NCBI GenBank assembly: GCA_017433125.1 | Contig: JAFRHT010000032.1 | Coordinates: 1-42,541 of the forward strand | Direction: 5' to 3' | DNA length: 42,541 nt | Source: Solobacterium sp. | GTDB taxonomy: Bacteria; Bacillota_I; Bacilli_A; Erysipelotrichales; Erysipelotrichaceae | Notes under the pieces: model-generated | The model's input: only the letters and a program-made list of their open reading frames with translations | What the model was told of the DNA's origin: nothing | Database searches by the model: none | In this document: in pieces, positions 6,953-12,900 of the stretch | How positions within the stretch are numbered: position 1 is the first letter of the stretch | Layout: the number at the start of each line of letters is the position of its first letter | Program-made: the position numbers and the translations under genes

Positions 6953-7513
6953 ATGACGCTTGCGGATTACATTAATCATAAACCGGTAATCGAAACAGCC
7001 CGGCTGATCATAAGACCGATGAATGTATTGGATGTTCCTGCATTGAAGAAATGGATGCCGGACAGATCGATTTATACTTATTGGGGCAAGGGACCGGGCA
7101 AAGCTGAAACACATCCTGAACTGCTGTTTGAAAAATCCGAAAGACAGACAAAGAGTTTTCACCTGGGAATCGCTGAGAAAGACAGCAATGAAGTCATCGG
7201 TGATCTCTGGGTTTATCTGATTGAGAATGACAGAATGGCACAGACTGCGGTCAGGCTGTCAAAAGAGAAGCAGGGGATGGGTTACGGAACAGAAGCTCTC
7301 TCAGCCATGACAGAATTCTGTTTCGCGCATACGGAACTGCAACGCCTGTGGACTAAGGTTGATGTCAGAAATACCGCTTCATCCAGGATGCTGGAAAAGT
7401 GCGGATATACAAGAGAAGGACTGATCAGGCAGGGAAAAATGGTGAACACCTGGTGTGATTATTATGTATACGGGATTCTGGCATCCGACATTCAGCAACA
7501 TGAAGAATCATAG
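6953..7513 (+). CDS. GNAT family N-acetyltransferase, RimJ/RimL-like
   Basis: A 186-residue protein of the Acetyltransf_3 (RimJ/RimL) type. It begins with the usual ETARLIIRPM strand, carries the acetyl-CoA loop SKEKQGMGYGTEALSAM and ends with the DVRNTASSRMLEKCGYTREG motif that marks this subfamily. Such enzymes acetylate protein N-termini, antibiotics or small amines; the substrate cannot be read from sequence. GGGAGG lies seven bases before the ATG. The upstream promoter has an inverted-repeat operator candidate. Confidence 0.88.
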   Translation: MTLADYINHKPVIETARLIIRPMNVLDVPALKKWMPDRSIYTYWGKGPGKAETHPELLFEKSERQTKSFHLGIAEKDSNEVIGDLWVYLIENDRMAQTAVRLSKEKQGMGYGTEALSAMTEFCFAHTELQRLWTKVDVRNTASSRMLEKCGYTREGLIRQGKMVNTWCDYYVYGILASDIQQHEES

Positions 7514-10183: not shown

Positions 10184-10450
10184 TTACTGCTTTTTAGCTT
10201 CCGGCTTCTTGGCTTCCGGCTTCTTAACTTCCGGCTTCTTAGCTTCCTGCTTCTTTACTTCCGGCTTCTTTACTTCCTGCTTCTTGGCGTCCTGCTTCTT
10301 CTCATCCGGCTTCTTGACGTCTGCTTTTTCAGTTGTCTTTGGCTTGTTGTTTGCCGGCGTGCTGCTGCATCCTGTAAGAGCTGGCGCTCCTGTCAGCAGC
10401 ATCATAACTGCCGCGATTGTTGCATACTTTTTCTTGATTCCTGTGTTCAT
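10184..10450 (-). CDS. lysine-rich repeat lipoprotein
   Basis: An 88-residue protein. MNTGIKKKYATIAAVMMLL with the lipobox LTGC (Cys28) is a lipoprotein signal peptide. The mature part is almost entirely a charged pentapeptide-type repeat of the form KKPE(V/A) or KKQE(V/A), about ten units, ending AKKPEAKKQ. The DNA shows matching tandem 15-base units at roughly 10190-10320. The mature protein is highly basic and probably unstructured, anchored at the membrane surface, where it could interact with anionic wall polymers or lipids. That role is inference. It sits next to a two-component system on the same strand. Repeat number may vary between strains. Confidence 0.7.
   Translation of the reverse strand: MNTGIKKKYATIAAVMMLLTGAPALTGCSSTPANNKPKTTEKADVKKPDEKKQDAKKQEVKKPEVKKQEAKKPEVKKPEAKKPEAKKQ
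10190..10325. repeat. tandem 15-base repeats within the lipoprotein gene
   Basis: Units of the type CTTCCGGCTTCTTGG (plus strand) repeat about eight times with point changes, encoding the KKPEA/KKQEV pentapeptides. Such tracts expand and contract by slippage. Confidence 0.75.
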
Positions 10451-10602: not shown

Positions 10603-11151
10603 CTATATGGCTTTATGCTGATGAATGATCTTTTCAAACCGGAACATTCCGTCTGAGAATCCGTCCGTATTCTCATATTCATCCGGATCGTTTGGGTCAC
10701 GATGATGGGAATTGAAGAATTCCACAATGTGAAAACCGCAGCGGTTTACATAGAAGTGGATGTTTCTGGTCTCAAAGTATGGTGTCACAGTTCCCCAGAC
10801 AGTTACTTCCGGATGCATTTTCTCGATCTCACACCATGCGGCATAACCGATACCTTTGCTGTGACATTCAGGCAGGACGAACAGCAGATCGAGTTCTCCT
10901 CTGTCTTTTTCTGTATGTATGACGGCTCCGCCGACACGCTGGTCTTCATGGACGATCCAGTATGCTTCTCCTTTGGTGATTGCTCTGATAATCGTACTCC
11001 TGGAAATGATTTCTCCTTCTTCCTCAAAGTGACTGTCACGGTTTCCGAATTCTTCTGTAGCTCCATATTTGAATGCCCATTGATTGTCCTTGATGAATTG
11101 TTCCCTGTCCTCTTCCTGCAGCTGTATCAGTTTTATCTGTGTTTTTCTCAT
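10603..11151 (-). CDS. GNAT family N-acetyltransferase under leader control
   Basis: A 182-residue acetyltransferase. I take the ATG at 11151 because AGGAGG lies eight bases before it; an in-frame ATG six bases upstream is only two bases from that site. GNAT features are the LDLLFVLPECHSKGIGYAAWCEIE acetyl-CoA motif region and a late FYVNRCGFHIVEFF strand. The C-terminus (NSHHRDPNDPDEYENTDG) is acidic. The leader carries a nine-codon peptide frame and a terminator-like hairpin, so expression is probably induced by something that stalls ribosomes or alters RNA folding. An antibiotic-modifying role is possible but only inferred from that arrangement. Confidence 0.85.
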   Translation of the reverse strand: MRKTQIKLIQLQEEDREQFIKDNQWAFKYGATEEFGNRDSHFEEEGEIISRSTIIRAITKGEAYWIVHEDQRVGGAVIHTEKDRGELDLLFVLPECHSKGIGYAAWCEIEKMHPEVTVWGTVTPYFETRNIHFYVNRCGFHIVEFFNSHHRDPNDPDEYENTDGFSDGMFRFEKIIHQHKAI

Positions 11152-11187
11152 GATCATTACCTCCTGTCCTTTCAGCCGGATAATAAA

Positions 11188-11224
11188 AGCCCGGCTCAGA
11201 ATGAAAACACATTCCAACCGGGCT
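11188..11224 (-). terminator. attenuator hairpin in the GNAT leader
   Basis: On the minus strand the arms AGCCCGG and CCGGGCT (7 bp) enclose an inner GAATG/CATTC pair and are followed by TTTTATT. The upstream CGGG-TGAG-CCCG can pair instead and would capture the 5' arm, giving mutually exclusive terminator and antiterminator forms. Confidence 0.6.
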
Positions 11225-11235
11225 CACCCGACATC

Positions 11236-11265
11236 TTATCCAACAGGTGGCCTGCAAGCAGTCAT
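11236..11265 (-). CDS. putative leader peptide MTACRPPVG
   Basis: Nine codons plus TAA, with AGGGG nine bases before the ATG. The product MTACRPPVG contains a Pro-Pro pair, a motif known to slow ribosomes. The stop codon lies 12 bases before the attenuator hairpin, the spacing expected for ribosome-controlled attenuation. Confidence 0.45.
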   Translation of the reverse strand: MTACRPPVG

Positions 11266-11312
11266 GCTCACGATCCCCTGTGCTACGGCACACTGTCCTC
11301 TGATGCGATGCA

Positions 11313-11341
11313 ATTTTAGCATAATCGCTCATGGTAATAAA
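11313..11341 (-). promoter_or_regulatory. promoter of the GNAT leader transcript
   Basis: Extended -10 TGCTAAAAT with TAAAAT at 11318-11313 and a -35-like TTTATT 17 bases upstream on the minus strand. Transcription would start near 11306, giving a leader of about 155 bases. Confidence 0.5.
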
Positions 11342-11711: not shown

Positions 11712-12383
11712 ATGAAAAAATTGTTTACGGCAATACGAGCATCAGATATTGAAACGGTAAGGCAGATTATTGAGAAGAAGCCTGAACTGGTTAATTGCGT
11801 GGCAAAGCAGCCGCCTAAGAAGGATGACGGGCAATCACCTTTGCAGGTCGCGCTCAAAACAGGAAATACATCCATCGCGGGCTATTTGCTTGATATGGGT
11901 GCAGATGTTAACTTCATGGAACATGAATCCTGCGGCAACACCTGGAGGACACCGGTGCTTCATGATGCCATTAACTGTTCGGTGATGCTGAGCAGGTGGA
12001 ATACCAATGATAAATACATGGGATTCCGTGTTTTCTCAACAAAAAAGAGGGCTGATGAAGCGCTTGGCATTCTGAACAGGATGCTTGCCATGGGTGCAGA
12101 TGTGAATGCCCTGGACTCGTATGGCAATTCCGGACTGAACCGTTTTGCCCTGCAGGCAAAGCAAATACTGCCGTCTTTCAATTACGTGGATCATATTGAA
12201 ATGGAAGACAGGCTCTTTACGGATGAGCTTCATGAGGATCTTAAGAGTGTGCTGCAGGTGTTAAAGGATGCCGGCGCGGATGCTTCCTATAAGGCGCCAA
12301 ATCTTGGTTGTTCCGTCAGACAATTCTGCAGTGAAGGAGCCATATCCATCTTGTTCAATGAAGTGTTTGGGTGTGAGAAATAA
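11712..12383 (+). CDS. ankyrin-repeat protein
   Basis: A 223-residue soluble protein without a signal peptide. Ankyrin units are seen as SDIETVRQIIEKKPELVN, then SPLQVALKTGNTSIAGYLLDMGADVNF, then EALGILNRMLAMGADVNALDSYGNSGL, and a late LQVLKDAGADASYKAPN. Two long insertions separate them, so about four units are recognisable. Ankyrin proteins mediate protein-protein contacts; no enzymatic domain is attached. GGGGAA precedes the ATG. It is the first gene of a tightly spaced run that continues to the phosphatidylserine decarboxylase-like gene. Confidence 0.85.
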   Translation: MKKLFTAIRASDIETVRQIIEKKPELVNCVAKQPPKKDDGQSPLQVALKTGNTSIAGYLLDMGADVNFMEHESCGNTWRTPVLHDAINCSVMLSRWNTNDKYMGFRVFSTKKRADEALGILNRMLAMGADVNALDSYGNSGLNRFALQAKQILPSFNYVDHIEMEDRLFTDELHEDLKSVLQVLKDAGADASYKAPNLGCSVRQFCSEGAISILFNEVFGCEK

Positions 12384-12447
12384 CCGGCCAGGTTCAGCAG
12401 ATTCCGATTTATGGAGGAGCCCCGGATCATTGGCGGAGAAGACAGAC

Positions 12448-12900
12448 ATGAAAGAATATAAATATATTACATTGAGAGATGACCCGTCGCTCAAAGATAT
12501 GGCGGCAGAGTGGTTCCACAGCAAATGGGGTGTGCCGAAAGAAGCATATCTGGAGTGCATGGAAAGTTATCTGAAAAACGAAACAGAATACGGATGGTAT
12601 CTGTGCCTGGACGGTAACAGGATTGTCGGCGGAACAGGTGTTATAGAAAACGACTTTCATGACAGAAAAGATTTAAGCCCGAATATATGCGCTGTGTATA
12701 CGGAAGAAGCGTATCGGTGCCGGGGTATTGCAGGACATCTGCTTGATATGGCGGTAAATGATCTGAAAGTTAAGGGTATTACGCCTGTCTATCTGGTAAC
12801 GGATCATACCGGCTTTTATGAAAGATATGGCTGGCAGTTTTACTGTATGGTCCAGGGGGACGGAGAACCGGAACTGACGCGGATGTATATCCATCGATAA
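12448..12900 (+). CDS. GNAT family N-acetyltransferase
   Basis: A 150-residue acetyltransferase. The start at 12448 has GGCGGAG upstream; a longer frame reaching back to 12268 would overlap the ankyrin gene and lacks homology. The fold is shown by GWYLCLDGNRIVGGTGVIEN, the acetyl-CoA loop EEAYRCRGIAGHLLDMAVND, and the terminal YLVTDHTGFYERYGWQFYCM. The pattern resembles GNATs that modify small metabolites; no substrate is inferable. It lies 64 bases after the ankyrin gene. Confidence 0.88.
   Translation: MKEYKYITLRDDPSLKDMAAEWFHSKWGVPKEAYLECMESYLKNETEYGWYLCLDGNRIVGGTGVIENDFHDRKDLSPNICAVYTEEAYRCRGIAGHLLDMAVNDLKVKGITPVYLVTDHTGFYERYGWQFYCMVQGDGEPELTRMYIHR

Follow-up and report, generated by a model that had tools for sequence, protein, structure and literature searches.

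A candidate orphan riboswitch class upstream of acetyltransferase and MATE efflux genes in gut and rumen bacteria

The leader of a GNAT-family acetyltransferase gene in Solobacterium sp. contains a conserved RNA which we hold, with great confidence, to be a structured cis-regulatory element. That it works as a riboswitch-like ON switch, responding to a small molecule and placed before detoxification genes, is likely; here we infer ligand binding, the polarity and the role in detoxification. The best reading is an orphan riboswitch class for which we found no match among the known ones. The window, i.e., the whole stretch of DNA analyzed, is 42,541 nt long, and the stretch from the -10 box to the GNAT gene gives a leader of about 150 nt with the following elements, listed in the direction of transcription.

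11313 to 11321, minus strand: extended -10 promoter element, TGCTAAAAT, recognized in the sequence
about 11306, minus strand: predicted transcript start, placed from the extended -10 element
11218 to 11309, minus strand: conserved leader RNA, the candidate riboswitch aptamer with P4, matched by covariance model R1
11302 to 11305, minus strand: P0 5' strand, CATC, partner of GATG at 11232 to 11235; CAUC/GAUG and CACC/GGUG in relatives
11298 to 11301, minus strand: internal loop 5' strand, AGAG (consensus GGAG), from the comparison of 48 RNAs
11293 to 11297, minus strand: P1 5' strand, GACAG, partner of CTGTT at 11242 to 11246, from covariation
11279 to 11292, minus strand: P2 hairpin, TGTGC-CGTA-GCACA with its loop at 11284 to 11287; covarying stem and conserved CGYA loop
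11254 to 11271, minus strand: P3 hairpin, variable and with compensatory changes, missing from short-form members; contains the supposed ATG
11236 to 11265, minus strand: MTACRPPVG frame with stop, ATG ACT GCT TGC AGG CCA CCT GTT GGA TAA, judged to be a shadow of the conserved RNA and not a gene
11242 to 11246, minus strand: P1 3' strand, CTGTT, from covariation
11236 to 11241, minus strand: internal loop 3' strand, GGATAA (consensus RGAUAA), from the comparison of 48 RNAs
11232 to 11235, minus strand: P0 3' strand, GATG, from covariation
11219 to 11230, minus strand: P4 hairpin (antiterminator), CGGG-TGAG-CCCG with its loop at 11223 to 11226; P4 pair variants in relatives
11187 to 11225, minus strand: intrinsic terminator hairpin, then a U-rich run to about 11182; the hairpin with TTTTATTA spans 11225 to 11182, and the 3' arm of P4 serves as its 5' arm
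11160 to 11165, minus strand: Shine-Dalgarno sequence of the GNAT gene, AGGAGG, recognized in the sequence
10603 to 11151, minus strand: GNAT family N-acetyltransferase of 182 aa, ATG at 11151 and stop at 10603; Pfam PF00583, E 2.6e-07

The R1 match to this leader (105.6 bits, E 7.8e-21) is the sole copy found in the source genome, and the leader folds better than its shuffles (z -2.83). All elements listed in a sequence-only reading of the locus are present on the minus strand: the extended -10, a GTGC/GCAC hairpin (11292-11279), AGGGG, the CGGG/CCCG hairpin, the terminator, AGGAGG and the GNAT gene. The proposal of a terminator-based attenuator with an alternative CGGG/CCCG pairing is supported as well, and homologues keep the hairpins with covariation. 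The larger fold, in which 11305-11302 pairs with 11235-11232 and 11297-11293 with 11246-11242, had been overlooked. Within 6 kb, the window has three genes for GNAT-type acetyltransferases, at 6953-7513 (plus strand), 10603-11151 (minus strand) and 12268-12900 (plus strand, recognized by eye only), and the conserved RNA precedes only one of them. The minus strand also has, at 10184-10450, a small frame that looks like a lipoprotein, is rich in KKPE/KKQE repeats and has no Pfam match.

A scan of GTDB species genomes gave 80 loci with a homologue of the GNAT gene, and a family search gave more. Matching leaders were found by BLAST in 26 of 102 distinct upstream regions, nearly all from metagenome-assembled genomes of animal gut or rumen and most labelled Erysipelotrichaceae. 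Their common pattern is TGCATCGGAGGACAGTGTGCCGTAGCACAGGGGATCG, a variable hairpin and GCAGGCCGCCTGTTGGATAAGATGTCGGGTGAGCCCGG, with a terminator after it. When five helices were tested on 25 leaders, 99.2% of the cells were in standard pairs, and nine pairs had changed on both sides, with such two-sided change present in every one of the five helices. None of 500 shuffles, which ignore the relatedness of the leaders, matched the observed pairing, and with the partner shifted by 1-3 columns the pairing fell to 28-37%.

Comparison of 48 distinct RNAs gives an architecture built on four core helices (P0, P1, P2 and P4) and a GGAG/GAUAA internal loop, with P3 as an optional addition. Of the 48, 35 have P0 as CAUC/GAUG and 10 as CACC/GGUG; the 5' strand of the internal loop reads GGAG in 42 and AGAG in five, and its 3' strand is mostly RGAUAA. 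While the stems of P1 and P2 are highly variable in sequence, their pairing is kept, and P4 occurs as CGGG/CCCG, CGAG/CUCG, CGGA/UCCG, UGGG/CCUA and UAGG/CCUA. In 27/48 RNAs a -10-like TANNAT occurs 12-14 nt upstream of P0, where 2.3 are expected from shuffles, and this fixed distance places P0 near the transcript start. A likeness to the 3' end of 16S rRNA (CCGUAG...GGGGA...UUGGAU), noticed by eye, was dropped as the pairing partners differ.

The loops of P2 and P4 are conserved as CGYA (CAUA in two RNAs) and UGMG. Aligned antiparallel, their A-U and C-G pairs are invariant in 48/48, U-G or C-G always occupies the second position, and at the third there is G.A in 36, G-C in 10 and A.A in two. 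In nine RNAs the loops are CGCA/UGCG, a perfect four-base complement, and in the window the P4 loop (11223-11226) is complementary to that of P2, with a single G.A as the exception. Because of this complementarity we propose that the two loops may kiss, as judged from sequence; two-sided covariation is scarce in the kissing pairs, where the GNAT subtype described below has G.A or A.A.

The terminator was recognized in 43 of the 48 RNAs, and in 38 of these 43 the 3' arm of P4 forms part of its 5' arm. Two members, L159 (1501-1620) and L177 (reverse strand, motif 1562-1501), use another design, in which the 5' arm of the terminator is P1b/IL2/P0b and not P4. Automatic assignment placed four RNAs in this P1/P0-type group, and L101 fits either design. 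The platform of L159 and L177 would have been built independently, with the same predicted polarity. Before the genes of L175 (1501-1640) and L100 (494-590) no terminator was recognized; in L100, P4 appears to lead straight into the GNAT coding region, by deletion or assembly error. Since the aptamer fold and the terminator are mutually exclusive in both designs, ligand-ON control is predicted. In the window, the terminator has a folding energy of -23.7 kcal/mol compared to -4.5 for P4 alone, and because it is so much stronger, read-through should need a stabilized aptamer.

In the mechanism we propose, transcription would begin just before P0, and the RNA would fold into P0 and P1 around the GGAG/GAUAA internal loop with the hairpins P2, optional P3 and P4, the P2 loop (CGYA) kissing the P4 loop (UGMG). 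A small-molecule ligand would stabilize this fold so that P4 withholds the 5' arm of the terminator, transcription by RNA polymerase continues into the gene and the acetyltransferase is produced, while in the absence of ligand the much stronger terminator hairpin would form. The GNAT product might then inactivate the inducing compound by N-acetylation, and in other bacteria the same RNA class may drive a MATE pump which exports it. The ligand is probably a toxic compound and perhaps an amine.

The sequence-only reading had instead explained the attenuation by ribosome stalling on a Pro-Pro leader peptide: a translation inhibitor would stall the ribosome on MTACRPPVG, the pairing would shift and RNA polymerase would pass. 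Such a device resembles the erm-type ribosome-mediated antibiotic attenuators, which likewise have a terminator and antiterminator before a resistance-like gene, and the window does offer AGGGG 9 nt before the ATG, with a stop codon directly in front of the 3' strand of P0. However, when the frame was read back in 30 long-form leaders, an in-frame ATG was found in only two and a GTG or TTG start in a few others; about 23 lacked any start codon. The window ATG is located inside the variable P3 hairpin, the start codon is missing in most relatives, and the stop is the UAA of the conserved GGAUAAG. Additionally, residue changes in the peptide (PVG to PIG or PIR) track base changes in P1 partners, e.g., CTGTT GGA to CTATC AGA is coupled to GACAG to GATAG, and short-form members retain the RNA core while the region of the frame is missing entirely. 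The leader peptide was therefore rejected, as start codons are mostly lacking, codons vary with pairing partners and short forms do without the region, and we give ribosome-mediated attenuation hardly any credence. Unlike the erm-type systems, the new RNA lacks a conserved leader peptide and has an aptamer-like conserved core. When the leader was sought in relatives, the hairpins were conserved and the MTACRPPVG peptide was not; the earlier reading thus holds for attenuation but not for the peptide. A minimal GTG/ATG CCG TAG frame in P2 was likewise rejected, as ACG, GCG and ATC are found at its start position.

The candidate riboswitch is not confined to the GNAT gene of the window. Together, R1 and a second covariance model, R2, for which the short and divergent members were used, found the 48 distinct examples in Bacilli, Clostridia and on one Selenomonas plasmid, pSRC2 of Selenomonas ruminantium. 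R1 matched in 30/273 genomes of the family and 9/392 of the phylum sample, and R2 in 14/296 genomes of the class and 2/398 of a clostridial phylum. The RNA was found neither in phage records nor in viral contigs scanned for exact patterns. About 50 GNAT homologues with no obvious leader yielded no convincing match to the RNA (one weak match, E 0.43), which is why we regard the RNA as a regulatory module separable from the gene. On pSRC2, an intact RNA with its terminator (L160:2997-3220) precedes what is left of a decayed frame. That frame, MHSEIFSKLPPT..., is similar to the beginning of the L175 MATE protein (MNSEVFATLAPTK).

Downstream of the RNA are homologues of the window GNAT, the unrelated GNAT family PF13302 (L158 by Pfam scan; L154 similar) and several MATE lineages (PF01554; L146, L156, L159, L175 and L176 scanned, L148, L174, L177 and L179 by similarity). 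In L150 the RNA precedes a short frame of no recognized family. L180 (reverse strand, motif 1560-1501) is an odd context, with a C-subtype RNA before a truncated GH1 frame (6-phospho-beta-glucosidase-like). A covarying 5' leader structure before several unrelated genes, with an expression platform exclusive with the aptamer fold, is what is generally seen in riboswitches, and the use of one RNA for GNAT or MATE genes points to a toxic compound being removed by acetylation or export. The earlier idea that a small molecule induces detoxification is in keeping with the RNA also being found before MATE efflux genes, while nothing indicates a translation inhibitor specifically.

The two gene classes differ in their loop pairs, with CGCA/UGCG before MATE genes and CGUA/UGAG before GNAT genes. 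The A subtype (UGAG) precedes 35 GNAT genes, two MATE genes and one unidentified gene, and the C subtype (UGCG) eight MATE and two other genes; for GNAT against MATE, Fisher's test gives 2e-7 with relatedness ignored. The base of the P4 loop facing the P2 loop (A or C), together with the presence of P3, thus splits the RNAs into a mainly acetyltransferase-linked and a MATE-linked set. It is conceivable, if somewhat doubtful, that this orphan riboswitch class comprises two specificity subtypes, possibly sensing two related toxic gut compounds, with the kissing-loop pair as the specificity switch.

Among known RNAs, guanidine-IV (mepA motif, GGAM-1) and its orphan variant Gd4v are the closest in gene context, as both also precede MATE and GNAT genes (PMC9788692), and the new RNA might belong to either. 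It shares with guanidine-IV the pairable hairpin loops, an intrinsic terminator with the same kind of terminator-based ON mechanism, MATE and some GNAT genes, and occurrence in Firmicutes. Moreover, the ACC/GGU pairing and nearby UAGGU of guanidine-IV resemble the short-form UCACCGG ... UAGGUG. We used sugE leaders from the Streptococcus family as references, most of which have the published hallmarks, i.e., an RCCG loop on the 5' hairpin, whose ACC/GCC pairs with the second loop, and UAGGYCU in the terminator tip; the published conserved bases are G62, U63, G66, U67, A71 and G72, and also A29-U72 and C30-G71. In the new RNA, however, the RCCG-loop hairpin is absent and the CAYC strand forms the outer helix P0 and no local hairpin. 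The conserved UAGGYCU tip (G66, U67, G72) is also absent, and terminator tips vary freely among the 48 RNAs. Its core consists instead of the conserved CGYA (P2) and UGMG (P4) loops and the outer P0/P1 helix with the GGAG/GAUAA loop. R1 and R2 match nothing in the sugE guanidine-IV leaders, and a guanidine-IV model, R3, which is small (4 base pairs, 9 sequences), recovered held-out guanidine-IV RNAs at E 1e-14 to 3e-17 and matched none of the new RNAs. Membership in guanidine-IV was therefore rejected on anatomy and reciprocal covariance model searches. The common short strings (ACCGG, UAGGU) could still hint at a distant kinship, although the topology differs.

Gd4v (Lenkeit 2022) is an orphan too, occurs in gut bacteria with GNAT and MATE genes and is presumed to be an ON switch. 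It is described as having almost the same fold as guanidine-IV, plus one more hairpin on the terminator, and as lying mostly before PRK07324 transaminases (PMC9788692). By that description (PMC9788692) the new RNA is set apart, as it does not have a guanidine-IV-like two-hairpin fold with an extra terminator hairpin. No PRK07324 transaminase was seen behind it, where the genes were GNAT, MATE, one truncated GH1-like and one short frame. Gd4v membership was thus rejected on described anatomy and gene context, and we consider it very improbable that the RNA is either guanidine-IV or Gd4v. Among the sugE references, two guanidine-IV-like leaders (L184 and L200, from Streptococcus ratti and another member of its family) carry an extra hairpin in the terminator loop (GUAGGGAUAUC..GGGAUAAAG), a trait said to mark Gd4v; yet the gene is sugE, and R3 does not match them. 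A different kind of effector would be a protein, either a regulator or a ribosomal protein, binding the conserved fold in place of a small molecule. Protein-bound structured leaders do exist, but unrelated GNAT and MATE genes sharing the RNA across distant taxa fit a diffusible compound better, and the downstream genes are not candidates for autoregulation, so a protein effector seems unlikely. Another RNA could also be the effector.

In the database searches, Rfam 15 gave no match to the leader RNA even at permissive thresholds (chance matches only). This is weak evidence of novelty, because the Rfam 15 copy used contains no guanidine-IV family and also fails to recognize the guanidine-IV leaders (L167, L183, L185, L198). 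No description of such a motif was found in the literature within reach, which included two motif surveys, with preprints, supplements and most subscription papers outside its scope.

The predicted structure of the window GNAT is an ordinary GNAT fold (pLDDT 75.7) whose nearest solved structures are diverse GNATs of 9-19% identity, and the fold is therefore uninformative on the substrate. Neither was the ligand obtainable from gene context alone. If our reading is true, the riboswitch would act as an RNA sensor that turns on N-acetylation or MATE export against a toxic compound, probably one common in rumen and gut. The two subtypes would provide a natural experiment on how aptamer specificity changes. 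The identity of the ligand would reveal what these bacteria defend against, and would assign substrates to an uncharacterized GNAT family and several MATE lineages.
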